Both the position numbers and the translations under genes were made by a program. A stretch of DNA of 64,000 bases, taken from NCBI RefSeq assembly GCF_007655135.1, contig NC_045133.1, forward strand, positions 5,928,376 through 5,992,375, read 5' to 3'. The stretch is from Punica granatum (lineage: Eukaryota > Streptophyta > Magnoliopsida > Myrtales > Lythraceae). Below, in pieces: positions 29,835 to 64,000 of the stretch. The notes beneath the pieces are model-generated. The model was not told where the DNA came from and did no database searches. It saw only the letters and a program-made list of their open reading frames with translations. Every line of letters begins with the position of its first letter. Within the stretch, counting starts at the first letter, position 1.

Positions 29835-29842
29835 ACACACAT

Positions 29843-33937: not shown

Positions 33938-34430
33938 ATGGCAGCTCAGATGTCCCAGTTATCATGCGCTCTTGTTGCAATTGCTCTATTTGCTCTCTGC
34001 CAATGTTAGTAAGCGGATATATTCCTATTCTCTATGAATTGATCATAAAAGATCAAAATGAGGAGAAAAAAATAAAAGGACTGATGAGATTATATACGTA
34101 CTTTCGTTAGTATAATAGAAGTTTCTAATTTATGAATTGTACATTCTGGCAGGCACAGCATCACGACATAAGGTTGATTTCTTGCACTCCAAGTCACTTA
34201 AGGCGAGTGAAGAAATCGAAAAAGCCAGTCCTTACAGCGGCCATCAACTCCGAGACACCTCGTCAGGGTCCCCAAAATCAATGGCTGCGAAAATAGTGAT
34301 TTCACAGTGCAGCAGGAGTTTATTTATATCGAACTACTGTTGCGATTCAGATCCGTCCCGTAAGTGCTTCAGAACTAGAGAGGAGTGTTTGCAAAGCTGT
34401 CCCCCCTTGAGTCCCCCCCTCGGCTCATAA
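33938..34430 (+). CDS. Secreted six-Cys peptide, gene A (114 aa)
   Basis: Coding exons 33938-34004 (67 bases) and 34153-34430 (278 bases), intron GTTAGT...GCAG. The intron falls after the first base of a Cys codon. MAAQMSQLSCALVAIALFAL is a signal peptide with a hydrophobic core and likely cleavage near the CQC/T junction. A propeptide of about 50 residues follows, ending in the conserved SSGSPKSMAAKIVISQC. The C-terminal domain has SNYCCDSDPSRKC and REECLQSCPP, spacing C-x9-CC-x7-C-x6-C-x3-C. It is then Pro-rich (SPPLGS). Probably an apoplastic signalling or defence peptide; no family can be assigned with confidence. Compared with gene B it differs at nine codons between the first and last Cys, all amino-acid changing. 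The chosen ATG is the first after the UTR intron and is conserved in all members. Confidence 0.87.
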
Positions 34431-35613
34431 CTAAGGTCATTTGCCTAAAAGTCATCTCAGAGGAATAAAACTGATCCTGTGAATCCCATAGTGATTTTTT
34501 GGATCGAGTAATCAATCTAGCCGGGCAGTGAAACGTACTTCTGTTTGTACGATGGGTCTGATCTATGAATAATAAGAATAATAAGAGATGAATTTGCTCA
34601 TTTATATGATCCTTTTAATAGTTCTCCTCAATTCAGATATGAATCAGTTCCATTGCTATCCTCGTACTTAGCCTCGTAATCCCTATAAGCACCACAGGCT
34701 CTGCGTGGCCATGGACTGGCCATGCAGCTTCGGTTGTTCTTGCTCCTTATGTATGTAGCTTGGAAATATTATTCTCTAGTTTGCACTCGAGCTATTCACT
34801 CGACACAAGAAATCATCTCCATCGGCTGTGATTCCAGTCCATATGTGAGAGAAATTTAGAAAAATAATAGTATGTCCTTACTTGTATACATATTGTTCAT
34901 ATTTCCAGGTACAGAGAAAATTTTGACCTCTAATTTTTGAACAAGAATTCCATACTTTTCTATCGAAAAATGGATTCAGATATGGAGAATAAAGGTGAAG
35001 AACGGAAGTTGAAAATAAGTAAACAGATTCTGCTCGCTTTTAGGCTTGAATACCAATTTTTTTGCACAATAGATTTACCATGTTTTGGGTATTAGTAACC
35101 TTCTTTAAAAGGGAGATATTAGCAATTGATTCATGCCCTAACACAAACATAATTGGCAATCAATATCTATTCTTATAATGTATTGGGTAATAAATGCATG
35201 GCAACTGAGTAATGCCCATTATTTTTTCACCAAAAAAAAAATGCCCATCATTCTCGTACTTCCATGTATATCTTCTAAGCGGTTGATTTTATTACCGAAA
35301 AAGACTATATATATATATATATATATTATGTGGACTGCATAAGCTGAATTATAAGCATTCTACTAATTAACATGGGATGGAATAGAGCATTAATTACCGT
35401 GGCAATGACATTGAGACATTATTGATGATCCAAGTGTACACATAAAGAATCACGACAACATAGTAGTTTATTAGCAGCTAAATGATCAATTTTAATTGCT
35501 AAAAGCATCTTTAACAACTAAAATATATTTCAACCGTATGTAGAGTAAATCATTTAGCTACTAAACTGTTACAACTGAAATGTAATCAAATTATTTTAGC
35601 TGGTATAAATTTT
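34431..35613 (+). repeat. 3' flank of unit A
   Basis: Non-coding. Matches 28098-28909 and 44152-45060, followed by a truncated CACTA-type MITE (about 35447-35613) that is cut off by the next inserted element. TA microsatellite near 35307-35326. Confidence 0.75.
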
Positions 35614-35860
35614 AGAGTAAAATGCACTTTGCCCCCAATCTTTGGGTTTAGTGGCAAAGTACCCTCCAACATTTCAAATTTTGCACTATACCACCCCAGT
35701 TATATAGAAAAAAGCAAAGTACCATCCCGGTCACTTTTCCGATCACAATTCCAGCAAAGATTTAAGCTATTATTGTTTTTATAAATTTCAAGTTTAAAAA
35801 ATAATTTCAATTATTAAAAATTCGAAAAAAAAAGAACCTGAAAAAGTGATCGGAAAAGGC
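35614..35860. mobile_element. MITE-like element truncating the CACTA copy
   Basis: The left end is AGAGTAAAATGCACTTTGCC, a common plant TIR-element end, and it contains GCAAAGTACC repeats and an inverted pair around GTCACTTTTCCGATCA / TGATCGGAAAAG. The right end is not certain. 35861-36508 holds no recognised gene; 36290-36508 is the start of unit B. Confidence 0.5.
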
Positions 35861-36508
35861 ATCTCAGAGAAACAAATTTCCCCAATTTCTTCACTGGCAA
35901 TCAAAGTGCAAGGATGACGATTTTAAGTTCTCATCACAGATGCTCATCCCGAAAACTCAAGCGACAATGGCAGGTTTTAACTAGGAAGATTACATGCGTG
36001 AGGAACTCTTTTATGAACCTTCGTCAATGGCCCTTGTCAGCAACCCATTTTGGCTCACCAGTTCAGGCAATACCTATCAACAACATCCAGACCATGACTT
36101 AAGCATTGATACGGAAGAAGGCTCGACATAGCAGCAAATTGCTATTCATTCTCAAGTCAACAGAGATAGGCAGATGATTCATGCATATGACAGAAGAACA
36201 TACAGAATCATCCAACAACATACAGAGTAAACAGGGAGCTTAGACAGCTGCCAAACCGGTATTTTCAGAATACATTCGTGACCATGATAGAAACTTTATT
36301 GATGGGCTTGGGGAGAGTCTTTGCGAGTAGTGAACTATGTGATTTATGTTTACTCTTGCTTGCCATGGCACATATCAAACAATCGGCAAGTTATTAGTTT
36401 CTCTTTTGGATATGTGTCCTGATTGCTCGTAAAGTACTCAAGAAGGCAAAAAGTGCTGGACACAAGATGAATCATACTGATCATATGTAGTTGCTTAGCT
36501 TGCTTTGA

Positions 36509-38202
36509 GGCTGTGTCTGGGAGTTTTTAAGGGAAGGAGAGGAGCAGAGAAGGGAGGAAAAGGAAGGGAGGGAATGGTCAGAGAATGCATGTCTGTTTGG
36601 GAGATTTTAGGGAGGGAGAGGAGAAGTAATGAAACAAATGTATATTTTTAAAGAATTATTCTTATAATTTATATAACAAGCCACTTTACATTTAAACCAA
36701 AAATATCTTTTTCCTGTATCAAAATGAATTGTACGTGCATTGATTAAATTGTTATTTCATGTATCATAACATGAAAAATTTTATGTTAAAAATTATTTAA
36801 AAAATAAATAGAAAATGTTGTTTTAGTTCTACGTAATGTCTTATGAATAATCAATGATATATCAATCATCTATTTTTTATTAAGACATGTAATTTAATTT
36901 TTCCCATTAAGTATGTACGAATTTGGATCACGGATTTAACAGACTATTATATAATATTAAAGGCCAAATTACATCAAAAAAACCTAAATTTTATAAAACA
37001 TCTCAGTTTTGTCCTAAATTTTGTTTTGTAACAAAAAAAACCACAAGTTTTGATAATCGTCTCAGATTTGACCTCCCGTAACTATTCTGTTAAGTTTGCT
37101 GTCTATTTGCCTGCGTGAATTCACGGGACCCGCAAAATTTACATATCATCTGATCATTTTTTCTTTTCTTTACAAAAATAACCTAAGTTTTCGTAAAACT
37201 CTCAGTTTTGTTCCAAATTTTGATTTGTAATTTTAAAAAATACCTATTTTAAAAATTTCTCTAAATAGTCCATGAAAGGAGATGCTAACCGGGGCCGACT
37301 TTAGGAGCAAAAACATATGGTTTTTTCATTACAAACCAAATTTATGATGAAATTGAGACTTTTTTGAAAATTTGAATTTTTTTATTTAACCTATCTTATT
37401 TGTTTATTGATATATATCTGAAGTTAATAATCCACGTATGCAAAATTGACGAAATTTATAACGGAGGTCATTTTTGAGACAATTTAGAAAACTTACGGTT
37501 TGTTTTGTTACAAAACAAAATTTAGAACAAAACTGAGACGTTTTACAAAACTTAGGTTTTTTTTGTGTAATTTGCCCATTTTTAAATTACATGGGTAATA
37601 ATTTAGCAATATCAGCAAAATATAGTTATAATTTTTCTATTTTATAATTCCATACGCGTAAGTTAACACGATATTATAATAATTAACATTAGTTTTATAC
37701 GTAATTCTTAAGTTTAATATGAAGTAATTTTTTATATAATTTTATAAAAATAAATTACGTGTAAGAATTACAGCTGTAAATACTGCTATGTATCAATGTT
37801 ATAACAGTAGTATAGCGTAGTGTGTGTATATGTATATATATATAACAGTAGCATACTAAAAAAAATAAAATTAGTAGTATATATACATATAACAGTAGTA
37901 TAAAATTATCATTACATATACATATATATATTATATATTATATATGCACCGTTCAGTAGTATGAAATTATCATTATATATATATACATGTATATTATATA
38001 TATTACGGTTATACATAGAATATATATTATGAGAACAATATATATATATATATATATATATTCTATTACTGATATACGTACACTACCGTCATACGTAGTA
38101 TATACATTATGACAGTAGCATAATATATAGCCTTTTATGTGCTCCCATTCTTCTATTCCCTCCAAATCCTCTCCCTCCATTTTTCTTCCCACAAACACTC
38201 TG
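36509..38202. mobile_element. Non-autonomous TIR element with GTGTTTGGGAG-type ends (unit B)
   Basis: Counterpart of 31159-32602. It lacks the 359-bp MITE but holds another element at 36962-37577. Interior with ACAGTAGTATA repeats and TA runs. Confidence 0.65.
36962..37577. mobile_element. 616-bp TIR element nested in unit B
   Basis: The left end GGCCAAATTACATC and the following CTCAGTTTTGTCCTAAATTT are mirrored at the right (AAATTTAGAACAAAACTGAG, GTGTAATTTGCCC). Unit A shows the uninterrupted sequence near 31935-31950. The flanking repeat (AATATTAAA/ATTTTTAAA) has two mismatches. Confidence 0.8.
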
Positions 38203-38866
38203 TTCGGTATTAAAAGCGGGATGAGGCGCATCTTAATTAGTCAGGGCAAGACTAAAAACCTATTCAAATCATCAATGAGTAATAAATGAAAAATATATTT
38301 TTTTTTCCAAATCTCAATCAACCTAAGACAGAGGCTGATACTCACTCTCAGGCATCTATTTGGTCCTTGCCTGAGACGCTTTCGGTCGGTCTCGAACGAT
38401 ACTTATACTACAAGTAAAGTCTCTTCAAAGCGGAGTTTATCAATTGCATCATATCTCACAGTAAAATGGTTATTATGACAAATTTCATATTTAAAAAAAA
38501 AGCTTAAAAAAATTGTACATGATGAAAGGCCCACGAGAGTAGAAAATAAAAATCACGAAATATAACATGGAGAGATTACAAGAGCCAACTTAACTATTTA
38601 TGGAATAAATGATGAGATAAAAATATATAATTTAAAAGATATTTTAAATTGGTATAACAAAATAAATGAAAATATATCAAATCTAAATAAGGACATACTT
38701 TACTCATTATTAAAATACTATTTAGAACAAATGACAAGAGATTTGTTTGATAATTGCAATTGAAAATACCCACAAATTTTGGTTTACATATTCACTTCTA
38801 ATTTTATTACCATAAAAGACTATATTTACATGAGGTGACAGCTGAAACGAACCATTATGGATTCAT

Positions 38867-38952
38867 TATAAAAGGGGATGTAAAGAAAAAGAATTAACGC
38901 ATTGCATTGACATTGAGACATTAACAAAGTAGCAGATTCCAGGCAGAATTAG
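38867..38952 (+). promoter_or_regulatory. TATA box and 5'-UTR exon of peptide gene B
   Basis: TATAAAAG at 38867-38874, donor AATTAG/GTGAGC after 38952, acceptor TTATAG at 39525-39530 one base before the start codon. Confidence 0.7.
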
Positions 38953-39531
38953 GTGAGCTTCCAACGACCCATTTTTTACGTTATTTGGTTAATTTAATTT
39001 ATTGTTTGTCTGAATTCTTATCAAATAGCCACCTAAAAATACATAAGTTGCTTCTGAAAATATTCCATGATATGAATCATTATATAGATTTGCAAATTTT
39101 TTAAGAAATATATCCCCAACTTTTTGCATGGATGTTAAATTCCTCTCCTTTCTAGACAGCTCTGCGATCCTTTATTTTTCAAATTCTTGGAATTTTTTTT
39201 TTGCGGCATCACGGTGTTTTCAGCCTATGATCCAAAAAAATTATCCCTTAATTGAAGGGCCTTTCGATAAAATCCCGTGCAATGTATGGGGCTAGATTTC
39301 TATTAAATAAATTTCGTTTCTTGGGAAAGACTTGCACCAATAATGCCATTAATTGGTATTTCCAATTCTTTCCTTCACTCGTCGATTACAATTTTACTTT
39401 CTTTTTTTGGGTAAATTATTACAATTTTACTTTTTCGGCGAAGATTCCATCATTAATGTTCATTAATTAGCATAAATTCAAATATTCTGCTAATATTCAG
39501 TGTCTTTTTTTTTTCCCTGAATTCTTATAGT

Positions 39532-40039
39532 ATGGCAGCGCAGATGTCCCAGTTATCATGCGCTCTCGTTGCGATTGCTCTCTTTGCTCTCTGCCAATGT
39601 TAGTAAGCGGATATATTCCTATTCTCTATGAATTGTTCATAAAAGATCAAAATGAGGAGAAAAAAAGAAAAGGACTGACGAGATTATATACGTACTTTCA
39701 TTAATATAATGGGAGTTTCTAATTAATTTCAGATATAAATTGTACATTCTGGCAGGCACAGTGTCACGACATCAGGTTGATTTCTTGCAATCCAAGTCAC
39801 TTAAGGCGAGGGAAGAAATCGAAAGAGCCAGTCCTTCCAGTGGCCATCAGCTCCGAGACACCTCGTCAGGGTCCCCAAAATCAATGGCTGCGAAAATAGT
39901 GATTTCACAGTGCAGCAGGAGTATATATATAACGAAGTTCTGTTGCGATTCAGATCCGTCCCTCAAGTGCTTCAAAACTGAAGAGGAGTGTTTGCAAAAA
40001 TGTCCACCCTTCAGGCCCCCATCGGCTCGGGGTACATAA
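39532..40039 (+). CDS. Secreted six-Cys peptide, gene B (116 aa)
   Basis: Coding exons 39532-39598 and 39756-40039, intact frame. Same signal peptide as gene A. The propeptide differs at a few residues. The Cys domain reads SIYITKFCC, DPSLKC, KTEEEC, LQKCPPF with the invariant C-x9-CC-x7-C-x6-C-x3-C spacing. The tail is RPPSARGT. The 68 bases ending just after the first domain Cys are identical to gene A, after which nearly every difference changes an amino acid. Gene B alone lacks the four-base TAAG before the start codon, so its 5'-UTR intron acceptor is TAG where the others have TAAG. About 100 bases downstream the sequence switches to a new partial unit. Confidence 0.87.
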
Positions 40040-40139
40040 CTAAGGTCATTTGCCCTTAAAGACTCGCGGGAATAAAACTGATCCTGTGAATCCCATAGTG
40101 ATTTTCTCGATTGAGTAATCAATCTAGCGGGGCAGTTAA

Positions 40140-41057
40140 AAAACCTGTTCAACTCATCATTAAGCAATAAATGAAAAATATTTTTTTCCTAAATCGATCA
40201 ACCTAAGACTGTGGCTGATACTCACTCTCAAGCATCTATTTGGTCCTTGCCTGAGACGCTTTCGGTCGTTCTCGAACGATACTTATACTATAAGTAAAGT
40301 CTCTTTGAAATGCAATTTATCAATTGCATCACAGCTCAAGGTTAAATAGTTATTATGAAAAATTTAATATATAAAAAAAAGCTTAAAAAAACTTGTACAT
40401 GATGAAAGGCCCATCAGAGTAGAAAATAGAAAATCACGGAATATAACATCAAGAAGAGCCAACTTAACTATTTATGGACTAAATGGCGAGTTAAAAAATA
40501 TAAAATTTAAAAGATATTTTTAATCAGTATAACAAAATAAAATGAAAATATCTCGAATCTAAATAAGGATAGATTGCACTCACTACTATAAAATACTATT
40601 TCGAACAAATGACAAGAAATTTGTTTGATAATTGCAATTGAAAATACCCGCAAAGTTTGGTTTACGTATTCACTTCTAATTTATTACCATAAAAGACTAT
40701 ATACATGAGGTGACTGCTGAAACCGAACCATTATGGATTCAATATAAAAGGGGATGTAAAGAAAAAGAATTAACGCATTGCATTGACATGGAGACATTAA
40801 CAAAGTAGCAGATTCAAGGCAGAATTAGGTGAGCTTCCAACGACCCATTTTTACGTTATTTGGTTAATTTAATTTATCGTTTGTCTGAATTCTTATCAAA
40901 TAGCCACCTAAAAATACATAAGTTGCTTCTGAAAATATTCCATGATATGAATCATTATATAGACTTGCAAATTTTTTAAGAAATATATCCCCAACTTTTT
41001 GCATGGATGTTAAATTCCTCTCCTTTTTAGATAGCTCTACGATGTTTTATTTTTCAA
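40140..41057 (+). repeat. Partial unit C' (promoter to 5'-UTR intron, no gene)
   Basis: Matches 38260-39187 of unit B. It contains TATAAAAG at 40743-40750 and a 5'-UTR exon ending at 40828 (AATTAG/GTGAGC), then intron sequence that stops at the foldback element at 41058. No coding exon follows before that element, so this is an orphan promoter. Confidence 0.8.
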
Positions 41058-43013
41058 ATTGAGTAATTAGGCAATTTCGTCCCTGACTTTCGCAAGTTGC
41101 ATCAATTTCGTTCCTGACTTATTTTTTACATCAATTTTGTCCCCGACTTTGCACTTTTTCATCAATTTCGTTCCTGACTTATTTTTTGCATCAATTTCGT
41201 CCCCGACTTTGCACGGTTACATCAATTTAATCCCTGACTTTGCACGGTTACATCAATTTAGTCCCTGACTTTCGCAACACTAGTCCCTGAGTTTTGGCGT
41301 TACATCAGATCGATTCTCGGTTACATCAATCTAGTCCAAGTGGCTAATTGACAGACGACGTTATTGCTTCGTTAATTTGTTCAATGACTGAATTGATGTA
41401 ACGACTGGGTAAATTGATGTAACCCCAAAATTAAATGATGTTTGTTACATCAATTACATCCTAAATTTTACTACAAACTTTTAAAATTTTAAAACAACCC
41501 AATTTTTTTTAAAATTTTCAATTTTGCCCCAACACCCTCTCTCTCCTTCATGTTCACTATTCATTGTCTTCCTCCTCCCTTCCACTGTTCATCATCCCCA
41601 GACCAACCTCTCCTTTTACCTGGCGAGATCCGCCCCGACCTCGCCCTCTTCTTCGACCACCCTTACCCCCCACCGAGGCCATCCTCGTCCTTGACAAGGA
41701 TGCCGTAGAAGGAGACCTCCCAATAGATGGACTTCTTAGGGATGTTCGGGGGGATGTCGAGGTCGCCGATGCAGAGTTCCAGGTGGAAGGCGAAGCAGTC
41801 GGGATTCCGATCGATGAACATCTCCTGCGGCCTATTGGAGCGGAGGTCCCAATTGTTGTAAAAAACGGCCCTGAAGTAGGAGTTTTGACTGACATTAGCT
41901 AGGGTCGTGGTGATCGTCCTCGAAAATTCGGCCGCCCATGTTGAATCAAATCTTGTCCCGATAGGCTCCCATGATCGAAATCGAGAGGACCCAGAAAAAG
42001 AATTCATGGATTTTTATTGGGTATCAAAGAATTAGAGGATAAAGCAATCGAAATTGGATGGATTGAGGGTCGAAATCGCAATTGAAGATATCGATAGAGG
42101 GAGGAGGGGACTATTGGGCGTCACAAGCAAGACCACTAGACAGACTATTGAGCCAACTTCGGGATAGTGTTTCTATCTCCACAGGACTCGGATTTCTGTA
42201 TTCTAGTTGTCTGTGGAAACCTCAAACAACAGGCTACAGTTTAGAATCAAACGAAAGTGAAAAATATGGAGAAAACAAGTAAAAAAGACTAGGTTAAATC
42301 CTCTATTCATCATGTCCGCAGTTGATTTTAGAATGCGATATTTTTCAAATGATTCAACCAAATTCAGTTTTGTAAAATCCTATAGCATCCTACTGATCTA
42401 AGCAATGAAATTATATAGCAATTCTGGTCAAATAACATAGCTACGATGATCTTCCATTAACAAGCTTTCAAGCTTTCACTCTCTAGAACCTAATGAGCTA
42501 CATCTCAACTTCTGAAGTTGAGGGTTACCCCGTCGCCCACCACCCCAAAATCAGTTAGATTGAAGGCAATCGCCCTCAGCCTCAGGAGTGGCCGGGCTAC
42601 AACAGGTGAGATTTGTGCTGAAGAAGAAGAAGAATGAGAAAGAGAGGAGGAAGAAGAACAGTAAACAAAGACAAATGGGTTAATAAAAAATAAGGGACTA
42701 ATTTGATGCAGCACGAGGACCAAATTGATGTAACAATTTGTATCATTTAACACCGCCAGCATTAATACTTAACGGCATGGACCAAATTGATGTCGCAGGA
42801 GAACAAATTGATGTCGCATTGGGACCTGATGGATGCAACCACCCCACAAAAGAACCAAATTGATGCAACTGTAACACTAACTGATGTAACTGCGGAAAGT
42901 CAGGGACTAAATTGATGCAACCGTACAAAGTCGACGATCAATTTGATGTAACCGAAAAGTTCGAGACTAAATTGATGCAAGAGTGCAAAGTTAGGGACGA
43001 AATTACCTATTTT
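41058..43013. mobile_element. 2-kb foldback element with subterminal repeats and a GC-rich cargo
   Basis: Left end AGGCAATTTCGTCCCTGAC and right end GTTAGGGACGAAATTACCT are inverses. Both ends are followed by arrays of roughly 37-40-bp repeats built around TTTGCACGGTTACATCAATT. The core (about 41530-42010) is GC-rich. No transposase is seen. The left flank corresponds to a position in the 5'-UTR intron and the right flank to the 5'-UTR exon of the unit, so the element sits at a tandem-duplication junction and not at a simple insertion site. Confidence 0.75.
41663..42007 (-). pseudogene. Unidentified coding-like fragment carried by the foldback element
   Basis: The 114-codon minus-strand frame begins MNSFSGSSRFRSWEPIG and includes FYNNWDLRSNRPQEMF and CFAFHLELCIGDLD. 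Its composition looks like real protein-coding sequence and is unlike the surrounding repeats. It runs to a stop in GC-rich Arg/Gly-coding DNA. I do not recognise the parent gene. A captured host-gene fragment is the likely explanation. Confidence 0.4.
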
Positions 43014-43070
43014 CTCGCATTGCATTGACATTGAGACATTAACAAAGAAGCAGATTCAAGGCAGACTTAG
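43014..43070 (+). promoter_or_regulatory. 5'-UTR exon of peptide gene C, without its own TATA box
   Basis: CGCATTGCATTGACATTGAG to GACTTAG/GTGAGC matches the UTR exons of the other units, but the upstream TATAAAAG stretch is absent because the foldback element ends right here. The nearest unit-type TATA is at 40743, 2.3 kb upstream. Confidence 0.65.
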
Positions 43071-43646
43071 GTGAGCTTCCAACATTTTACGTTATTTGGT
43101 TAATTTAATTTATCTTTTGTCTGAATTCTTATCAAATTAGCCACATAAAAATACATAAGTTGCTTCTTAAAATATTCCATGATATGTATCATTATATAGA
43201 TTTGCAAATTTTTTAAGAAATATATCCCCAACTTTTTGCATGGATGTTAAATTCCTCTCCTTTTTAGACAGCTCAGCGATCTTTCAATTTTCAAATTCTT
43301 GTACTTTGTTTTTTTGCGGCACCACAGTGTTTTCAGCCTATGCCCAAAAATATTATCCCTTAATTGAAGAGTTACTTCGATAAAATCCCGTGCAATGTAT
43401 GGGGCTAGTTTTGTATTAAATAAATTTCGTTTCTTGGAAAAGACCTGCACCAATAATGCTATTAATTGGTATTTCCAATTCTTTCCTTCACTCGTCGATT
43501 ACAATTTTACTTTCTTTTTCTGGGTAAATTATTACAATTTTAATTTCTCGGCAAAGATTCCATCATTAATGCTCGTTAATTAACATAAATTCAAATATTC
43601 TTCTAATATTCAGTGTCCTTTTTTTTTTTGAATTCTAATCGTAAGT

Positions 43647-44151
43647 ATGGCAGCGCAGATGTCCCAGTTACCATGTGCTCTAGTTGCGATTGCTCTCTTT
43701 GCTCTCTGCCAATGTTAGTAAGCGGATATATTCCTATTCTCTATGAATCGATCATAAAAGATGAAAATGAGGAGAAAAAAAGAAAAGGACTGACGAGATT
43801 ATATACGTACTTTTGTTAATATAATAGGAGTTTCTAATTAATTTCATATATGAATTGTACATTCGGGCAGGCACAGTGTCACGACATCAGGTTGATTTCT
43901 TGCACTCCAAGTCACTTAAGGCGAGGGAAGAAGTCGAAAGAACCAGTCCTTACAGTGGCCATCAACTCCGAGACAGCTCATCAGGGTCCCCAAAATCAAT
44001 GGCTGCGAAAATAGTGATTTCACAGTGCAGCAAGAGTGCATTTTTAACGGGATTCTGTTGCGATTCAGATCCGTCCCTTAAGTGCTTCAACACTAGAGAG
44101 GAGTGTTTGCAAGTCTGTCCTCCCTACAGCCCCCCACCGGCTCATAACTAA
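43647..44151 (+). CDS. Secreted six-Cys peptide, gene C (115 aa)
   Basis: Coding exons 43647-43713 and 43871-44151, intact frame. Signal peptide MAAQMSQLPCALVAIALFAL. The propeptide contains LKAREEVERTSPYSG and the conserved SPKSMAAKIVISQC. Cys domain: SAFLTGFCC, DPSLKC, NTREEC, LQVCPP, with tail YSPPPAHN. Spacing is C-x9-CC-x7-C-x6-C-x3-C. Against gene B the Cys domain has eight replacement codons and one synonymous. It is closest to gene D. Regulation may differ from its siblings, because its TATA region is displaced by the element at 41058-43013. Confidence 0.87.
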
Positions 44152-45062
44152 GAGGAATAAAACTGATCATGTGAATCCCATAGTGATTTTCTCGATCGAG
44201 TAAACAATCTAGCGGGGCAGTTAAATGTACTTCTGTTTGCAGGATGGGTCAGATCTATGAATTATAATAATACGAGAAATGAATTTGCTCATTTATATGA
44301 TCCTTTTAATAGTTCTCCTCAATTCAGACATGAATTAGTTCCACTGATATCCTCGTACTTAGCCTCATAATCCCTATGAGCACCCCGGGCACTGTGTGGC
44401 TATGGACTGGCCATGCAGCTTCTGTTGTTCTTGCTCCTTATGTACGTAGCTTGGAAATATTATTCTCTAGTTTGCCCTCGAGCAATTCACTCGACACAAT
44501 AAATCACCTCCATCGGCTATGATTCCAATCCATATGTGAGAGAAATTTAGAAAAATAATAGTTGTGTTCACTTGTATACATATTGTTCATATTTCCAAGT
44601 ACAGAGAAAATTTTGACCTCTAATTTTTGAACAAGAATTCCATATTTTTCTATCGAAAAATGGATTTAGATATGAAGAAAAAAGGTGAAGAACAGAAGTT
44701 GAAAATAAATACACAGATTCTGCATGCTTTTAGGCTTGAATACCAATTCTTTTGCACAATAGATTTACCATTTTTTGGGTATTAGTAACCTTCTTCAAAA
44801 GGGAGATATTAGCAATTGATTCATGCCCCAACACAAATATAACTGGCAATAAATATATATTCTTATATTGGGTAATAAATGCATGGCAAGTGAGTAATGC
44901 CCATTATTTTTTCACCAAAAAAAATGCCCATCATTTTCATACTTCCATATATATCTTCTAGGCGATTGATTTTATTACCGAAAAAGACTATATATATATA
45001 TATATATATTATGTGGACTGCATTAATTACTGTGGCAATTACATTGAGACATTATTGATGAC

Positions 45063-45250
45063 TCAAGTGTACGAGAAAATATTAAATGATCATAACTCAT
45101 AATGATGTGGTAAGAAAGAACCAATAAAATTGCTTCAATTAAGAAGATTTACCACAATTAATCGAGTGATTAGCACTTATTATTTAGTTTATTGCAATTT
45201 AATTGGTTCTTTCTTATACCATGTGATGAGATATGATCACCGAATAATCT
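45063..45250. mobile_element. Small MITE in the 3' flank of unit C
   Basis: TGATGTGGTAAGAAAGAACCAAT near the left is inverted as ATTGGTTCTTTCTTATACCA at the right. CAAGTGT occurs on both sides (45053-45059 and 45255-45261). Absent from the same place in units 0 and A. Confidence 0.65.
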
Positions 45251-45273
45251 CTCCAAGTGTGCACACATGGAAT

Positions 45274-45730: not shown

Positions 45731-45770
45731 AATTCACTCCCCTAAAAAATGTGCATACCTACACACACAT

Positions 45771-46245: not shown

Positions 46246-46271
46246 ACACACATATAGTCTTTCATTCTATA

Positions 46272-49073: not shown

Positions 49074-49285
49074 CTCGTAAAGTATTCAAGAAGGCAAAAA
49101 GGGCTAGACACACGATGAATCATACGGATTATCTATCGTTGCTTCTCTAAGGATGTGTTTGGGAGTTTTTAGGGGAGGGAGAGGAGAGGAGAGCGAATGG
49201 AGGGAGAATGCATGTCTTGTTTGGGAGATTTTAGGGAGGGAGAGGAGTGGATAGGAGAAGTAATGAAAAAAATGTATATTTTAAA

Positions 49286-53000: not shown

Positions 53001-55062
53001 GAATAATCTGTAATTGCATCGACAGTCCAATAAATGTTGGCCATGTACTTTTAAAACTCATAATTTCAAAAGTACCTAAACACATGACACGCGTAGCATG
53101 GATATCTAAGAAGTACTCATGTATTTTGACTTGAGTCTGGGCTTGATTTGAGGCGGCTCAAGTCAGAGTGCACGAGTCTTTCTTAGACCATTTCTGAGCA
53201 AAGCGACAAGTTTCTTAGCTCTCTCGGAGTCCTCACAACCTTGGAAGATCCAAGCGATCGGTCGACATTCGGCTACTGAATTTCGACAGTCTGTGTCATG
53301 TAATCTCGATTTTTGGTTTAAGGGTATGACCACCGGTTCTTGATTTTCCGACACCCTAGGCATTAGGATGATTGAAACATACTGAATAAGGAAAGGGACG
53401 GGCGCCTGTCAAGGTGCAATTATCATTCATATACCCTCCCTTTTCTAGCTGTATGTTTCTGTCACTCTAGTGTAGATTCGAGCGCTTAAGGATTGGATTA
53501 GAGGCATGAGCGGGGACGGCCCGTGAAAGGTTGTCCGGTCCCTCATGAGATACGTGCAAAGATCTTGGCACCCTAGTGGTGTTTCATGCCCCCCTTTTCC
53601 CTAAGTGTGTTCTTAGAATGGGTCAAAACGCGAAAAACAGATTAATCTCAAACACGGGCAATTAAAGGGTTAAGTTTCGGGTTTTAGGTGAAAACACACT
53701 TGTTATAATCTGTAAAAGCTGCATTGTCACAATACATAACAATTTAAAGTAATCCACACATTTGAGACTTGACTACAGACACCATGTCTGTCAGGTTCTT
53801 TCAATATTGCCGAATGCAACATACCCTCCCAGGGCGGTCCATGACCGATTCACATTGAATACATCACCCCATTTGTTTGTTTAGGGTAGGAATTTGTTTC
53901 CCAAGCAACCCCGGTTCATAATTTGTTAATCACGCAAAATCCGGTAATAACACACAATTTGTCTGTTTTCTTCTGTCTTGATTTGCTTTTTATCCGTTTT
54001 GTCTCTTTTTCATGTGGGTTGAGCCCGAACCCATAGGATACGATGCACATGGGGTCCAATGCCCATTACTGTTGATCAAGAGATCCAACGCCCCCACACA
54101 CTGAGTGCGCATGACCCTAGTGCGATATGGGGTCTCACCTTGAGTCACTGTCTTAACCTGTTTAGTATCCATGCGGAGGATGACTCGGGTTAGGACACGT
54201 GAAATGAGGTTAAACAATCACCCAGGAGCTCGACCGATCCCACGGCTATCTCGAGGACCATCATGTCCTTTCGAAATTCGTCGGGTTGGTCAGACCTGAT
54301 CTCTAGCTCTTATGAGCCCGTGTCGCTTTAATTTCGGTTTCGATCGTCTAAAACCCCACAGTGAGCATGAGCGGAATATTGGCCGAACATGAGTCGACCG
54401 GAATCCATTTGTTGTAAATTGTATTTAATTTTTGAAAGTATATTGTAAGGTATTTATTTGTACATTTATCTGTGTAACGATCTCGATTAGTAACCATGGA
54501 GTCTAAAAGTCAAAATCGATCGGTCGGTTTACGAGTCCCCTAGATGAGTGGGACCACACGAGTCATGGGCCCGTTCTACATGGTGAACTAGCCATCAGGA
54601 TTTGGTTAACCGAGATGCGAGGACAACGGACCGATCCTCTGACCTGAGGATTCGCTTTTCTTTCGGTCTCTTAAACTGAACCGGTCGTTTCTACGAATTT
54701 ACGGTATCAAAACAAGTAAGATGAACAAAATTTAAATAAAGCGGTAAATGAATAAAAATGGCAAATCCTAGACAAACTGGAGTACCGGTAGGACGTGCGG
54801 GATATAGGCCCGCACGTAACAGAACTCTAGAATTCGAAACTTCGGATTTCACAAGACCATATGCCTTAGCAAACTAGGTGTATCCCTTACCACTAGAACC
54901 GGACAACTCATCGACTCTCGACCTTCAAGTTGTAAATAGGTAGTGGCGACTTCTTCTCATATGTGTCTATCACGTATCCCCACGAGAAGGTGGACACTCC
55001 CAAGCCATGCGATTGGACCACACGCATGCAGGCTCCAACAAGATAAAATTCAGGTCTGCACA
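50063..55062 (+). repeat. 5' LTR (about 5.0 kb)
   Basis: Starts TATCAGCACCCCATTTT (TG start apparently mutated to TA) and ends TCTGCACA. The last 860 bases match 60686-61262. A CT-rich stretch at 50800-51450 contains short frames that are not recognisable genes. Confidence 0.75.
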
Positions 55063-55084
55063 ACTTGACGACTCCGCTGGGGAC
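55063..55084 (+). promoter_or_regulatory. Primer-binding site, Arg-tRNA-like
   Basis: TTGACGACTCCGCTGGGGAC directly follows the LTR end. It is nearly identical to the complement of a plant tRNA-Arg 3' end (expected TGGCGACTCCGCTGGGGA), with one mismatch, as in Tat/Ogre elements. Confidence 0.75.
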
Positions 55085-56976
55085 ATATAGAGGGTTCGGG
55101 CTCAATTCCGTTTGTCTGTTTGCTTGTTTATTTATTTACCACTTTATTTAATTGTTGTATATTTAAATTTTGCACATTTATTTCCCACACGCGCATTGCA
55201 TATCATACTAGCTTTACGTACCTACGGGTCGCGTCCCACAACCGGATGAGGAAACACAAGTTAGATAGGGGTTCGAAGTTGGGGAACAACGCCCTCGACC
55301 TTGAAAAGAATCCTACTAGATTTCAAGGAATTCACGCCCTTGAGTCGGGGCCCCCCCAACCCTAGGTAGCACGGTCCCTGTAGTACCCAGCCATGCGTCA
55401 TGCTATGCCTCCATACCAGCCTTCAACTCGACTTCAGCAACTGTCCATTTAGTCGTCCTTCCAGCTATTGAGTCTTTTTATGTTTTGAAAGAGATTGTAC
55501 ATAAACTTTGTACCTTGTATATTAAGCCGTGGGCATTTGCTTTTCCGCAAACATGCATCATGCATTTTTGAAAATTAGGATATTATTCACATTGACGGGT
55601 CCTAAGTCGATTTCCTATCATCTTGGTAAAGGATGTCATGCTTGGACCCTTGTCCGCGCTTCGATCGTGTCACGCAACCGTTGGACGACCTTACCCGCAT
55701 TTGGACCAGTTGGATTGCAACCAACCACGATTACGCCAGCTCTTTCCTTGGAGATATCCTTCTACCGGCCGCTCGTCTGATAGAACCGAACTTCCTTGAA
55801 GTCGTGACATTATGGGATCCAGTCCACACAGTCTTCGACATCCAAGACACCAAACCCACACCAACCATTGAGGGATATCAAACCCACACCAACCACAAGG
55901 ATCCCACCAAGCCTCCATAGACCGAGGTCGACACCCCTACAGAGACACCTTCCTCTTCGAGCTTGCTGGTATCCGAGTTGAGAGGGATCGTCTTCACTGG
56001 GAGATAACTGAGAAGGACAAAAAACTCACCGACCAATGTCAACTCCAGAAGGAACGCCCAAACCCACGCCGAGCTGTAGAAACGCAGCCAAGAGCAGTCT
56101 CAAACGAACGTTGCTTTGGAGAGGTCCAGGAAGAGGACTCGCGGAGGCCCGCATACATCCAAGGATAGGTTCCTCCGTGAGGTCTCAGCCTAAATCCGGT
56201 GCTTTCTAGAGCAACGCTCGCTCGTGCTCAAGCGCGGTTGGAAAACTGACTTAGGATTCTATTTTCAAGGCTTGCATTGTACTTTGAACCTTTAAAGTTA
56301 ATGTGAATGACCGCATTAGTATTTTCAAATCTCATGCATCACATGCATTCCTTTTATTTATTGTTTTGCAGCTAACACGCATTTCCGGTAAAGGTGAGTC
56401 GTGCCAACATTTGCAAGTAGACCATTTGCGGTCCCCACCCTTCCTCCGCGGTAAGATAAGCTGTGGCCCAAGGGCCAACCTACCTTCCAAGGCGAGCAAA
56501 CCCCCACTGACTTCGCGCAACCGAAAGCGTCTACAAGTGCGAGTGAGCGCATCCCCGACGTGCCAAGACACATCTCTAGCATTCTTTGTGCACATTACTC
56601 CGCGTTGTGCGAGTATATCCCTCTATCCTCATGCACGCACCCTTAGCACACCCCGCATAGATCTCTCACTGTGCTTGCACGACATCTACCAGGCTAGTTC
56701 GGTTGCCTAAGCCCTCGCATTAAAGTTGCGGACATTTCTTACTCCTTCATTGTTTATCCTTTTCCCATTGCAAGAAATAAACAACAAGAATGCAACTTGA
56801 ACCCCAAACGACCACAATCGTGACAACGAACACTTCTGGTCCAGTAGTGGAATTTCGACACTGAGGCCCAACTCTCCCTCTGCAAAGATCGCAAGTAACT
56901 ACTTCAACAGATAAGGCATAGCCCAACCCACACGCCACGGGAGTTACTAATACGGTCCTACCTTCGACCAAAAAAT

Positions 56977-57894
56977 GGGCCCACCCTACCCTTCGTTGTG
57001 GCCACCAATCAGCCACCGGGCCAACACACACTTTCTTTCTTAAACTCTCATTTTATTTCTATACAGTCCCACAAATGGACTCCCAGCTAGAACAAACTCC
57101 CAAGGGGCATTAGGACAAACCTAACAATGCCCTAACAGTTCTATCGGGCCTGTTCGACCAGTCTGTCCCTATGGGACCCAGCTCCACGAGCCTTCCCTAA
57201 GATAGCTGCGTCTGCCTACCCACACCTGGGAAAGTACGCCGATGCGGCCCCAGTCACGGTTTGACCACTCTAGCGCGGCGATGACTGCACTCCCGAAAAA
57301 TGAGTGTCCCCACGTGCGGTACCCCATGAGTCGCGCGCTGGACAAGGGGATTTCCTATGGGCCCACTCCACATTTTTTACCCATAGTCCACCCAATAATC
57401 GCCTAATGCATCATCTTTTTCGTCATCCTTCACAGGGGCCCACCCTACCCTTCGTTGTGGCCACCAATCAGCCACCGGGCCAACACACACTTTCTTTCTT
57501 AAACTCTCATTTTATTTCTATACAGTCCCACAAATGGACTCCCAGCTAGAACAAACTCCCAAGGGGCATTAGGACAAACCTAACAATGCCCTAACAGTTC
57601 TGTCGGGCATGTTCGACCAGTCTGTCCCTATGGGACCCAGCTCCACGAGCCTTCCTTAGGACAGCTGTGTCTGCCTACCCACACCCGGGAAAGTATGCTG
57701 ATGCGGCCCCAGTCATTGTTTGACCACTCTAACGCGGCGATGACTGCACTCCCGAAAAATGAGTGTCCCCACGTGCGGTACCCCATGAGTCGCGCGCTGG
57801 ACAAGGGGATTTCCTATGGGCCCACTCCACATTTTTTACCCATAATCCACCCAATAATCGCCTAATGCATCATCTTTTTCGTCATCCTTCACAG
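56977..57894 (+). repeat. 459-bp tandem duplication in the internal region
   Basis: Two near-identical units (56977-57435 and 57436-57894) begin GGGCCCACCCTACCCTTCG. Only a few substitutions separate them, so the duplication is recent relative to the element. Confidence 0.9.
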
Positions 57895-59888
57895 GGACAC
57901 GCCAGTCACAGGCAAAGAGTGATACACAGATTCACACCTCCCTAAGAACTCTTCTCGGGCCCTTCACCTTATACTTCAACGGGGTAGGAGTTCGACTGAA
58001 GAGGTACCATCCACGAAGCCAAAGACGGAGGTGATCAAGCAAACAATCCAGCATCAATGCAACCATCTTACTCGGAATCAAGTAACGCCCTAGGGCAAGT
58101 TGAGCCTTCACAGCAAAGGCCAACCAACAGCCATCAAGTAACAACAAGCCCCCGAGGCAAGACACGTCTATCAGCTTCTAGAGCGCATGTCCTCCAAGAG
58201 GTACCCGCTTCGAGAGCAACAAGGCGCTGTCGGGGACGAAGATCGTGCAAGACGCTTACCACCGGCAACATCCACATACGCTAAGGCATCCTCATCCAAC
58301 ATTTATGACGGGGCAACGATTTTCTATTTTTCTCTTTCGTAAACAATAGGGGAAAATCTTTTGTGAAAGTTCACAAGGGAGAATAGACACTTGATTCGAC
58401 TTCCAAATGCGCAAGACAAGTTTCAAAACCCAGGTCTGACCAACGAGGCCGGGGCAAGAACACATCGAGGCTCCACCAAGCAAAGCACATAAAAGCAACC
58501 TCGACAACGCAAAAATTCGAGGAAATTCAAGCAAATCCAAGGGGCATGACCAGACCCCAGTTAAAAAAACAGCGGGTTAAACCTGCCAATCGAGAAAAAC
58601 AAGGCGGCGTCAAAGTCAGAAGGTGCAAGAAACCAAAATCCTTCGTAGTGCTCGCCTAAAAGTCAAGAAACCTCGACAAAAAAAAAACAGAGAGAAGGGG
58701 CAACAATCACGACTCCTCGATGGAGACAGATTGCGAATCGACCCAAACTCAAAAGTCGAATTCTTCGGACTTTTCTTCTTTGCAAACTCGAGAGATAAAC
58801 GAATCGAGCTCGCTAGGTCGAAAATCCCTCGGGGCGACCTAGGCAAAAACCAGGGTAAAAGAAAAGTACGACCAGAAATCCCGAGGTGGGTGGTCGTGGC
58901 AAAAGGAGAGCTCATCTCCTATAGGTTGAAAGGTGCGGCCAGATCCCGAGGTGGGCGACTGTAGCAAAAGGAGAGAAAAATGAGAGAAAAGATAAACCAA
59001 TTTGTCACCCAAGCCCATCACACAAAGTGCGGACTAGGAATTCCCCAAGGGAAGTAGCTAGGTTGTCTTCTCCAGCGCAATCTCCAATCGGCTCTCCAAC
59101 AAAACTCACCCGTCCAAAGCGGATTCTCCCTCACGTACAGTAGGCAACCAAATATACCATCCGAGCAGTTCGGAACAGCCTACACAATAGAAGGACAAAG
59201 GAGAAAGGGGGGTACATTTCGCTGTAGGCGTGAACCCGTGTATCCTTTTAGCCTAGGCAACGTGCTCCCCCAAGTTTTCTCTTTTCTCTTGGTCAATTTC
59301 ATAACTCAAAATGGAACACAACTACTCTTCAATCAGCTACCACATAGCTAAAAATCCCAGACAGTCTTTTTCGGGAGTCTAGTAATAACACTTCGGAAAT
59401 AACTAGACCAAGGTCTGATCAAATCTGGAAAGAAATCCCCCAGCGGGTTGCAGACGCAACTGCCCTACGACACCTTGATGAGAAGGGTCTAAAGCTGACG
59501 GGCGCATCAAACAATCGATAGAGCTGTTAGGGCATCATTAAGGAAGTTAATATGCCAATACACGACCAACGAAAGCCCTGTAGGCCTCGCATCAAGGCCT
59601 TCCAAAAGGCACCCCACTCACACGGTCAAAACAAAATTCTTCACGGGTCGTTCAAGCAACTCGAAAATGCAAAACAGGTGTCGCAATGACGACATTTTAC
59701 AACCTTCCTGCAATTACGCATTGTTAGTAACTCACCCATGACTTACTCATGATAACAGGATCACAGGTATTGCAAGCAGCAAGAACTATGACAGACTCTA
59801 ATTGCCGGTCTCATGGGATACGTAGGTGCTCATTCCTAGGGCTCGAGTCACTCATCGCAAGGCGCCGGCCTTCGGTGAGCCAAAACTG

Positions 59889-60360
59889 CCCCAACGGCGA
59901 GGTTGGCTTCCAACGGACCAACAAACAACTGTCCCTGCGGAGCAGAGCCGACCTCCGGCAAATCAGACAGCCACCCCAGCGGCGAAGCCGGCTTTGCTGT
60001 AAGTCAATGAGCAATCGCCCCAGCGATGAGGTCGGCCTCCGGTGGGTCACACACCATCGCCCCAGGGGCAAGGTCGACCACCAGCGAAGCAACATCATCC
60101 CACATCACAAGGCGCCAACCTCTAGTAGATCGAGCACAGCACCACCCCAGGGGCAAGGCCGACCACCAGCGAAGCAACATCATCCCATATCACAAGACGC
60201 CGACCTCCAGCAGAACCAACACAACACCACCCAGAAGCAAGGTCGACCACCGGCGAAGCAACATCATCCCATATCGCAAGGCGTCGACTTCCAACAGATC
60301 AAACACAACACGGCCCCGAAGGCAGGGTCGACCACTAGTGAAGTAACATCCTCCTAGTAG
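59889..60360 (+). repeat. Minisatellite near the 3' end of the internal region
   Basis: About four units of 84 bp containing AAGGTCGACCACCAGCGAAG and AGCAACATCATCCCA start near 60060, 60143, 60227 and 60311. Shorter, related units of roughly 57 bp precede them. The frame 59749-60357 stays open only because of this repeat. Confidence 0.85.
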
Positions 60361-60685
60361 CGAATCCAGCCTCCGACGAATCAGTTCCCTTAGGATGACA
60401 TCTCCCCAGTACACCTGGCACATACCGTCGATCGCACGACTAACGGAGAGTCGTGCCTACCTTCGCAAACACAGATAGAAGTAACCGAGGTATCCCCAAC
60501 AAACAAAGCAATGGGTCATCTCCAACCATGCGCGACGACCCAGCATCATCCTCAGAAAAGCCCTAACCCAACGCCAAGCAAACCAAATCACACTTCTTTC
60601 GCGCCTTGCTCAACTCCCTAGCACTCATCCTTCCGTCCGCGTCTCCTGCATCCTCATTCCAAACAAACATCTTTACTTTCCCATA

Positions 60686-61262
60686 GAAATGAGGTTAGAC
60701 AATCACCGGAGAGCTCGACCGGTCCCGCAGCTATCTCGAGGGCCATCCTGTCCTTTTGAAATCCATCGGGTTGGTCGGACCCGATCTCTGGCTCTTACGA
60801 GCCCGTATCGCTTTAATTTCAGTTTCGGTCGTTTAAACCACAATGTGAGCATGAGCGGAATATTGGTCGAACGTGAGTCGACCGGGATCCATTTGTTGTA
60901 ATTTGTATTTATTATTTGAGAGTACATTGTAAGGTATTTATTTGTACATTTATTTGTGTTACGATCCCGGTCTGCAATCGTAGAGTCTGAAAGTCGGAAT
61001 CGATATAGGCCCACACGTAACAAAAACCCCCAATCCGGAACTTTGGATTTCGCAAGACCATATGCCTTAGCAAATTAGGTGTATCACTTACCCCTAGAAC
61101 CGGGCAACTGATCGCCCCTCAACCCTCGGGTCGTAAACAGATAGTGGCGACTCCTTCTCACTCGTGTCCGTCACGCATTCCCACGGTTAGGTGGACACTC
61201 CAAGCCGTGCGATCGGACCGCACGCATGCAGGCCTCAACAAGACGAAATTCGAATCCGCACA
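60686..61262 (+). repeat. Truncated 3' LTR
   Basis: Matches 54203-55062 of the 5' LTR but lacks the first 4.1 kb and an internal piece of about 280 bp (54521-54801). Many substitutions separate the two copies, so the insertion is not recent. Confidence 0.8.
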
Positions 61263-61284
61263 TAATATGAAGTAGTTTTATATA

Positions 61285-61602
61285 GGGTTTTTACCTAAAA
61301 TGGCTCATGATTTGTCCGTTTTGTCAAATCTATCCCATGGTTTACTTTTTGCATCAAATCTATTCCGGCGTTATCTTCTCCGTTAACATCTAACGGTCGT
61401 GCTGACGTGGCACGTGGAGAGATAGTGGGCCACACTTGCCACATAGGTGCCACGTCAGCACGGCCGTTAGATGTTAACGGAAAAGATAACGCCGGGATAA
61501 ATTTGATGCAAAAAGTAAACCATGGGATAAATTTGACCAAAAAAAACACAAGATAGATTTGACAAAACGGACAAACCATGGGCCATTTTAGGTAAATACC
61601 CC
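61285..61602. mobile_element. Mutator-like MITE with perfect 9-bp target duplication, copy 2
   Basis: 318 bp, same family as 49286-49612 (TTGTCAAATCTATC, CTTTTTGCATCAAATC). TTTTATATA lies on both sides (61276-61284, 61603-61611). Confidence 0.9.
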
Positions 61603-61845
61603 TTTTATATATATATAATTTTATAAAAATAAATTACGTGTAAGAATTGCTGCTACAAAGACTACTATGTATCCATCTTATAACAGTAGTATAGTGTAGT
61701 GTATATATATATATATATATATATTAAAAAACGAAATTTAGTAGTATAGATACATATAACAGTAGTATGGAATTATCATTATATATATGCATATAATATA
61801 TATATATATATATATTACGGTTATACATAGAATATATATTATGGG

Positions 61846-61880
<35 letters not shown>

Positions 61881-62230
61881 CTATTACAGTTATATATACA
61901 CTACCGTTATCCGTAGTATATATATTATGACAGTAGTATAATATATAGTTGCTATGTGTTCCCATTCTTCTATTCCTTCAAATTCCCCCAAATTGGAGGG
62001 TTAACAAACTCAACTAAGTTACTCTCCCTCCATCTCCCTTCATGTCCTTTCTCCTCACCAAAAAAATCTCCTAAACAAAGGTTTCACTTTCCCTCCAAAT
62101 CGATCCCCCTCCATTTTTCTTCGCCCAAACACACTGTTAGGTATTAAAAGCGGGAAGAGGCGCATCTTAATTAGTCAGGGCATGACTAAAATCCTATTCA
62201 ACTCATCATTGAGTAATAAATGAAAAAATA

Positions 62231-62237
62231 TATATTT

Positions 62238-62268
<31 letters not shown>

Positions 62269-62270
62269 AA
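62231..62270. repeat. TTTA tetranucleotide microsatellite
   Basis: About nine TTTA/TATT repeats; units A and B have a short T-run here instead. Confidence 0.95.
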
Positions 62271-62817
62271 TCTCAATCAACCTAAGACTGAGGCTGATAC
62301 TCACTCTCAAGCATCTATTTGGTCCCTGCCTGAGACGCTTTTGGTCGGTCTCAAACGAGACTTATACTGTAAGTAAAGTCCCTTCAAAACGTAGTTTATC
62401 AATTACACCACATCTCACGGTTAAATGGTTATTATGACAAATTTCATATTAGAAAATAAAATCTTAAAAAATTGTACATCAAGAAAATTTAGAGGCCCAC
62501 AAGAGTCGAAATAAAAAATCACGAAATATAATATCGAGAAATTACAAGAGTCAACTTAACTATTTATGGACTAAATGATGAGATAAAAAAATAAAATTTA
62601 AAAGATATTTTTAATTAGTATAACAAATAAAATGAAAATATACCAAATCTAAATAAGGATTTACTCATTATTAAAATACTATTTAGAACAAATGACAAGA
62701 AATTTGTTCGGTAATTGCAATTGAAAATACCCACAAATTTTGGTTTACATATTCAATTCTAATTTTATTACTATAAAAGACTATATTTACATGAGGTGAC
62801 CGCTGAAACCGAACCAT

Positions 62818-62903
62818 TATAAAAGGGGATGTAAAGAAAAAGAATTAACGCATTGCATTGACATTGAGACAATATCAAAGTAGAAGATTCAAGGCAGAAT
62901 TAG
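62818..62903 (+). promoter_or_regulatory. TATA box and 5'-UTR exon of peptide gene D
   Basis: TATAAAAG at 62818-62825, UTR exon ending AATTAG/GTGAGC at 62903. The intron runs to just before the start codon. A stretch around GGATTCAATATAA present in other units is shortened here. Confidence 0.7.
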
Positions 62904-63091
62904 GTGAGCCTCCAATGACCCATTTTTACGTTATTTGGTTAATTTAATTTATCGTTTGTCTGAATTCTTATCAAATAGCCACCTAAAAATACATAAGTTG
63001 CTTCTTAAAATATTCCATGATATGTATCACTATATAGATTTGCAAATTTTTTAAGAAAAATATCCCCAAACTTTTTGCATGGCTGTTAAAT

Positions 63092-63092
<1 letters not shown>

Positions 63093-63142
<50 letters not shown>
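63093..63142. repeat. 50-base poly-C tract in the 5'-UTR intron of gene D
   Basis: An uninterrupted run of 50 C. Units A, B and C read TTCCTCTCCTTTTTAG or close to it at this place. Either an unusual expansion or a sequencing/assembly artefact. Confidence 0.95.
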
Positions 63143-63527
63143 TTTTTAGACAGCTCTACGATCTTTCATTTTTCAAATTCTTGTACTTTGTTTTTTTGCG
63201 GCACCACGGTGTTTTCAGCCTATGCCCAAAAATATTATCCCTTAATTGAAGAGTTACTTCGATAAAATCCCGTGCAATGTATGGGGCTAGTTTTGTATTA
63301 AAAAAATTTCGTTTCTTGGAAAAGACTTGCACCAATAATACTATTAATTGGTATTTCCAATTCTTTCCTTCACTCGTCTACTACAATTTTACTTTCTTTT
63401 TCTGGGTAAATTATTACAATTTTAATTTCTCGGCAAAGATTCCATCATTAATGTTCGTTAATTAACATAAATTCAAATATTCTGCTAATATTCAGTGTCT
63501 TTTCTTTTTTGAATTCTAATCGTAAGT

Positions 63528-64000
63528 ATGGCAGCGCAGATGTCCCAGTTATCATGTGCTCTAGTTGCGATTGCTCTCTTTGCTCTCTGCCAATGTTAGT
63601 AAGCGGATATATTCCTATTCTCTATGAATTGATCATAAAAGATGAAAATGAGAAAAAAGAAAAGGACTGACGATATTATATACGTACTTTTGTTAATATA
63701 ATAGGAGTTTCTAATTAATTTCATTTATGAATTGTACATTCGGGCAGGCACAGTGTCACGACATCCGGTTGATTTCTTGCACTCCAAGTCACTTAAGGTG
63801 AGGGAAGAAGTCAAAAGAGCCAGTCCTTACAGTGGCCATCAACTCCGAGACAGCTCATCAGGGTCCCCAAAATCAATGGCTGCGAAAATAGTGATTTCAC
63901 AGTGCAGCAAGAGTGCATTTTTAACAGGGTTCTGTTGCGATTCAGATCCGTCCCTTAAGTGCTTCGACACTAGAGAGGAGTGTTTGAAAGTCTGTCCTCC
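63528..64000 (+). CDS. Secreted six-Cys peptide, gene D (cut by window end)
   Basis: Coding exons 63528-63594 and 63748 to beyond 64000. The frame is open to the last base and all six domain Cys are already present (SAFLTGFCC, DPSLKC, DTREEC, LKVCP). The signal peptide equals that of genes A and B. The closest relative is gene C, with seven replacement and two synonymous codon differences in the shared coding sequence. The stop codon and Pro-rich tail lie outside the window. Its upstream unit contains the 11.2-kb LTR insertion, but the TATA region and UTR exon remain next to the gene. Confidence 0.85.

Follow-up and report, generated by a model that had tools for sequence, protein, structure and literature searches.

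A local array of genes for probably secreted six-cysteine peptides in pomegranate with signs of diversifying selection between the cysteines

Why do neighboring copies of a small secreted peptide gene keep their cysteines and change the residues between them? The question is raised by a 64,000-nucleotide stretch of the Punica granatum contig NC_045133.1 (C7:5928376-5992375 in our contig numbering; the whole stretch is called the window below). An initial annotation had noticed here tandem genes for six-cysteine peptides and had ascribed their replacement-biased divergence to positive selection. Our reading is that they are locally duplicated genes for secreted cysteine-rich peptides, related to ESF1, PCP-B, and MEG, whose loops are diversifying under selection as ligands; we give this reading as a whole a probability of roughly 0.55.

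The genome searched for paralogs comprises 320,430,517 bases in 474 contigs, and scoring of 13 candidates yielded at least 12 related places, which is a lower bound. Seven of them are close copies, namely genes A-D in the window and H, F, and the damaged G beyond it. The five distant copies are E, which lies in the window, I, J, and M on the same contig C7, and K on contig C6. Contig C7 holds 11 of the 12 gene bodies, ten of these inside about 160 kb. Gene E and the copies beyond the window were absent from the initially annotated gene set. Nine gene bodies (A, B, C, D, H, F, E, J, and K) are intact, each with a hydrophobic N-terminal leader (judged by eye), a GT-AG intron in identical phase, and six domain cysteines. 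The other three are damaged: the signal exon of G is frame-shifted and its acceptor AG is lost, I has a stop codon just past the acceptor, and in M the fifth cysteine of the domain is missing. The donor is at the identical place in all 12 gene bodies, and the acceptor AG is present in 11.

Genes A-D, all on the plus strand, share a leader segment that is conserved and has the donor GTGAGC; an intron of about 570-620 bases follows it. The coding part then consists of a signal-peptide exon, a GT-AG intron of 148-157 bases interrupting a cysteine codon, and an exon for the propeptide and the six-cysteine domain. Gene A (33938..34430; exons 33938-34004 and 34153-34430, intron 34005-34152), delimited by its GT-AG ends and by tblastn copies, encodes a precursor of 114 amino acids, and its domain, counted from the first to the sixth cysteine (C1 to C6), occupies 31 codons at 34308..34400. 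Gene B (39532..40039; exons 39532-39598 and 39756-40039, intron 39599-39755) encodes 116 amino acids with the domain at 39911..40003, and gene C (43647..44151; exons 43647-43713 and 43871-44151, intron 43714-43870) encodes 115 amino acids with the domain at 44026..44118. Gene D (63528..64000; exon 63528-63594, intron 63595-63747, second exon from 63748 to the window end, domain 63903..63995) is clipped by the end of the window, and the rest of it was read from the genome. The distant paralog E, on the minus strand at 23984..24575 (signal exon 24575-24509, mature exon 24168-23984), encodes 83 amino acids with the pattern C-X8-CC-X7-C-Y-X5-C-X3-C.

Between C1 and C6, genes A and B differ in nine of the 31 codons (12 nucleotides), and all nine differences replace the residue; B and C differ by eight replacement codons and one synonymous codon (15 nucleotides). 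Both counts agree with those of the initial annotation, as does the constant spacing of the cysteines, which is identical in A-D and in the three close copies outside the window. The run of identity between A and B before the first cysteine codon, previously given as 68 bases, is 60 bases long (72 if the first four codons of the domain are counted in) and stops at a synonymous difference in codon 54. Among the other pairs, the numbers of replacement and synonymous codons are 9/0 for A-C, 10/0 for A-D, 5/0 for A-F, 9/2 for B-D, 7/1 for B-F, 8/0 for C-F, 9/0 for D-F, and 2/2 for C-D, the youngest distinct pair.

How often neutral evolution would produce such counts was estimated for the 25 non-cysteine domain codons evolving at the intron/downstream rate; the domain was picked after the data had been seen, and the P values are uncorrected for that choice. 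The expectation for A and B is a mean of 4.0 replacement and 1.3 synonymous codons. At least nine replacements have a probability of 0.011, at least nine with zero synonymous changes 0.004, and at least eight replacements between B and C 0.018; if the faster upstream DNA is included in the rate, these values become 0.042, 0.011, and 0.056, respectively. Given nine changed codons, the probability of zero synonymous changes is 0.07-0.08 for A and B, and that of at most one is 0.34-0.36 for B and C. The scarcity of synonymous changes is by itself weak, and the informative signal is the surplus of replacements. In simulations with six settings, a count of 13 changed codons in the domain is only slightly out of the ordinary (P 0.02-0.19). 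The domain contains 19 extra amino-acid states against 8.2 expected neutrally (P 0.0004; 0.002-0.034 in the other five settings), because sites 79, 82, 83, 96, and 104 changed repeatedly.

Rates were compared among the five intact close genes with distinct proteins, A, B, C, D, and F; H, with the same protein as D, and the damaged G were set aside. Divergence among the five is 2.0-9.2% over two introns, lowest for C and D, 2.0-7.1% downstream (A, C, D, and F), and 9.1-14.3% upstream (A, B, D, and F); since noncoding divergence differs by region, the choice of the baseline matters. Under a joint codon and nucleotide likelihood model with the best tree ((C,D),(A,F),B), the nonsynonymous rate relative to noncoding DNA is 0.25 in the signal peptide, 0.82-0.84 in the propeptide, and 2.32-2.38 in the domain, the baseline being introns or introns with leader and downstream DNA. 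A domain value of 1 is rejected on both intron-based baselines, with twice the log-likelihood difference (2dL) equal to 11.5 and 12.7. Addition of upstream DNA to the baseline lowers the three values to 0.20, 0.66, and 1.85, respectively, with 2dL of 7.0 for the domain. In the model without a multi-nucleotide mutation term, 2dL stays at 9.9-14.8 when any one of the five genes is left out. In the same model, removal of the six cysteine codons raises the domain to 3.0 times the noncoding rate (2.4 times with upstream DNA), and the domain then exceeds both the synonymous rate (p 0.015-0.024) and the propeptide part of its exon (p 0.0001).

In pairwise comparisons, the intron rate is lower than the replacement rate in eight of ten pairs, the nonsynonymous divergence (dN) of the domain being 0.127-0.237 against intron divergence of 0.060-0.089; the exceptions are A-F (0.083 and 0.073) and C-D (0.027 and 0.037). 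The ratio of dN to synonymous divergence (dS) in the domain is about 1.7 in the joint model, so the initial expectation of a value above 1 holds for the point estimate, with significance only when the cysteine codons are omitted. The claim of positive selection stands in part: the excess of replacements over introns is there, whereas the tests of dN above dS and those that allow for multi-nucleotide mutation are weaker. We regard diversifying selection as moderately supported and as the better reading, though not proven beyond mutational alternatives.

What kind of peptides are these? The domain pattern is CX8-9CCX7C[FY]X5CX3C, and six cysteines in the arrangement CX8-9CCX7CX6CX3C occur in nine of ten aligned paralogs, M having one fewer. 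The cysteine that closes the loop after the CC pair is followed by F or Y in all ten, and, going by the text of PMC5215366, this aromatic residue may be equivalent to Tyr-45 of the ESF1/PCP-B peptides (Tyr-45 / Trp-48). Among the isolated domains, the Pfam family Meg (PF24153) matches four of ten, the most of any family (best E-value 0.0088), and BAP (PF06639) matches one of ten. As whole proteins, A matches BAP (E-value 0.019) and Meg (0.84), and E matches Meg (0.084). The top PDB match is 7dab, Maternally expressed gene14, which is reached by the A domain at an E-value of 0.012, the only match below 0.1, and by the whole A protein at 0.058; the alignment spans CC-X7-C-[FY]-X5-C-X3-C, a spacing common to both. 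The layout of two exons, one for the signal and one for the cysteines, together with local duplication makes the genes Meg/Ae1-like in the wide sense.

The structure, predicted with the five window sequences, points with moderate confidence to one helix and three strands in the domain, two of the strands being three residues long and the third two residues (blocks with predicted local distance difference test scores, pLDDT, of 75-81; predicted template modeling score 0.46). The propeptide is modeled at low confidence. This predicted layout would be compatible with the fold published for ESF1.3 and the PCP-Bs, in which disulfides hold one helix and a sheet of three strands (PMC5215366).

Several results weigh against this reading, both in its family part and in its selection part. 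The first cysteine of the CXCC motif is absent in all ten aligned paralogs; the residue in its place is N in A and F, K in B, G in C and D, and Q, E, N, V, or D in the distant copies, and the position is among the most variable sites in the close copies. For genes B and C, whole-protein searches gave no Pfam family at an E-value of 10 or less. Three unrelated Pfam families each match one of the ten domains at E-values of 0.01-0.04; therefore one such match means little, and of all these matches only the repeated ones to Meg carry much weight. The scores reported here are below the curated cut-offs (15.8 against 25 bits for BAP, 10.3-14.8 against 27 bits for Meg), a profile of ten sequences reaches 7dab only at an E-value of 0.53, and confidence in the structural model is modest (mean pLDDT 61 and 68). 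As for selection, dN above dS in the domain is not significant when the cysteine codons are included (2dL 3.3, 2.9, and 2.7), and pair A-F has no real excess of replacements. With a multi-nucleotide mutation term the relative domain rate falls to 2.0 on the intron-based baselines (p 0.022 and 0.018) and to 1.58 with upstream DNA (p 0.11), and dN above dS then has p of 0.23, 0.28, and 0.30; the term itself gives no better fit (2dL 0.8-1.2).

These tests leave some room for the view that recent duplicates evolved neutrally or under relaxed constraint and gained few synonymous changes by chance, an explanation that we consider unlikely. It would account for the conditional probability of 0.07 for zero synonymous changes, the only slightly unusual number of changed codons, and the p of 0.11 and of 0.23-0.30 just given, and damage in three of the 12 members shows that constraint can be lost. 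It does not account for replacements above expectation (P 0.011 for A and B at the intron rate) or for the number of amino-acid states (P 0.0004-0.034 over six settings), and the cysteines and the signal peptide are under constraint in the same genes.

Defense is a competing function of about the same low probability: the array would encode antimicrobial cysteine-rich peptides of the BAP type, diversified by an arms race with microbes. Defense peptides, too, typically show fast loops on a fixed cysteine frame and birth-and-death arrays, and the best Pfam match of gene A, weak but extending across the cysteine domain, is to BAP, the 'basal layer antifungal peptide'. That match is under the cut-off, and BAP is found in one of ten domains versus four for Meg. 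Still less probable is an origin of the replacement clusters in multi-nucleotide mutation or ectopic conversion by an unsampled paralog: two or more base differences are seen in three of nine changed domain codons between A and B and in four of nine between B and C, and dS of the gene A signal exon is 0.31-0.40 versus under 0.2 in exon 3, as patchy conversion would give, but the multi-nucleotide term gains little in fit and leaves p of 0.018-0.022 on the intron-based baselines, and the loop residues of C and D occur only in C, D, and H among at least 12 genome matches, so that no donor is seen within this lower-bound search.

Taking the array as one of secreted ligands under selection, we suggest the following. 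Each gene would provide a signal peptide from its first coding exon and a variable propeptide with the C-terminal six-cysteine domain from the next. The peptide would be secreted and folded by three disulfides, without the one that uses the first cysteine of CXCC, and would act as an extracellular ligand whose loops 77-84, 92, 96-99, and 103-104 diversify between copies as selection follows a changing partner, the most plausible setting being pollen-stigma or seed signaling. The peptides probably work like the ESF1, PCP-B, and MEG ligands. The roles proposed initially, that is, receptor ligand, pollen or embryo signal, or defense peptide, fit the resemblance to ESF1, PCP-B, MEG, and BAP; the role as a reproductive ligand is a putative one. 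A bolder and rather doubtful scenario is that a lineage-specific branch dropped the disulfide anchored by CXCC, which freed position 83 and its loop as a hypervariable recognition surface, and that the copies then diverged by recurrent selection into species- or genotype-specific reproductive ligands with a receptor contact unlike that of PCP-B.

The history of the array is partly visible in its noncoding DNA. D and H (loci L012 and L013) encode identical proteins about 15 kb apart. Their first introns differ at one of 599 bases, divergence in intron 1 and downstream is 0.2-0.3%, and upstream divergence, 3.0% across about 1 kb, drops to 0-2% in those windows that lie closest to the gene; the pair is a very recent duplication or a conversion tract. 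The signal exon of gene A (33938-34004) has four to five synonymous differences to the other copies, hinting at patchy exchange between copies. The leader segment of gene A (33301..33355, plus strand; repeat family D16) is the probable end of a putative 5' untranslated exon; the donor GTGAGC follows position 33355, TATAAAAGGG lies upstream at 33270-33279, and the start of the segment is unmapped. Gene C carries an insertion in its 5' region, an element about 1.95 kb long (41061-43015) whose terminal inverted repeats of about 120 nucleotides are 75-79% complementary. This element sits between two copies of the leader exon and early first intron of gene C, the second of which (40774..41060, plus strand, family D16) matches 43016-43297 at 92.7%. 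Gene C may be transcribed from the far promoter via the enlarged intron. A run of 50 C at 63093-63142, in the first intron of gene D, has no counterpart at the equivalent position of A, B, or C.

Other parts of the window also bear traces of duplication. Region 28099-29860 is a copy of the DNA downstream of A and C (pieces 80-91% identical) with no recognizable peptide gene ahead of it and is probably the remnant of a lost copy of the peptide-gene unit. A separate tandem duplication of several kilobases is formed by 4609-10271 and 13708-19169 (pieces 78-93% identical). Its related open reading frames of 182 amino acids (5288-5836, minus strand) and 141 amino acids (14440-14865, minus strand) match no Pfam family at an E-value of 0.01 or less. 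A fragment of a retrotransposon polyprotein with reverse transcriptase RNase H and integrase domains lies at 67-1347.

ESF1, PCP-B, and MEG peptides have roles in the acceptance of pollen and in the early development of the seed. For this group, local arrays of cysteine-rich peptides with replacement-rich loops, tandem duplication, and positive selection have been published before; therefore the importance of the pomegranate array rests on its six-cysteine variant and its putative function. Neither the variant nor the array was found described in a literature search that covered an open-access library. A family natively without one cysteine of the motif that is reported as essential in PCP-B would test where in the scaffold the receptor is recognized, and a young array in which near-identical, moderately diverged, and broken copies occur together with an intron baseline is a good system for the study of selection on ligands.

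Like the presumably secreted array peptides, the PCP-B/ESF1 (ESFL) peptides of Brassicaceae are small, secreted, and cysteine-rich, diverge fast between the cysteines (dN/dS under model M0 of 1.06 and 1.36 for PCP-B gamma and delta, which are under positive selection there; PMC9856046, Table 3), and duplicate often (PMC5215366). They share the second half CC-X(6-8)-C-X6-C-X3-C with an aromatic residue after its first single cysteine. Hallmarks of the ESF1/PCP-B group also include expression in the pollen coat/tapetum or central cell and activity on FERONIA or the YODA pathway. The PCP-B pattern CX4CX7-8CXCCX6-8CX6CX3C (PMC9856046, Table 2) has seven or eight cysteines including CXCC, and the array peptides, with six, fit it only from its second cysteine on, lacking the first cysteine of CXCC and one further upstream. 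Their precursors are also longer, 114-116 amino acids in A-C versus 74-82 in the A. thaliana PCP-Bs. According to a secondary mention, the activity of AtPCP-B depends on C30, C32, and C33, three cysteines spaced as in CXCC (PMC9908550); therefore the same mode of receptor binding cannot be assumed for the array peptides.

The maize Meg genes (CRP5420), as described in PMC4236715, are similar in having two coding exons and one intron, local expansion, damaged copies, one member with a transposon-displaced promoter, and signs of positive selection. That paper names CXCC as what marks the Meg/Ae1 supergroup, and the Meg motif CX6CX4CYCCX14CX3C was found in none of the ten array paralogs, all of which lack CXCC: MEG14 reads KCYCC where the array peptides read NYCC, KFCC, or GFCC. 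By cysteine pattern, the array thus falls outside strict membership of either ESF1/PCP-B or Meg. The two substitutions reported as selected in Meg adjoin the first cysteine, whereas the changes in the array are spread over several loops.

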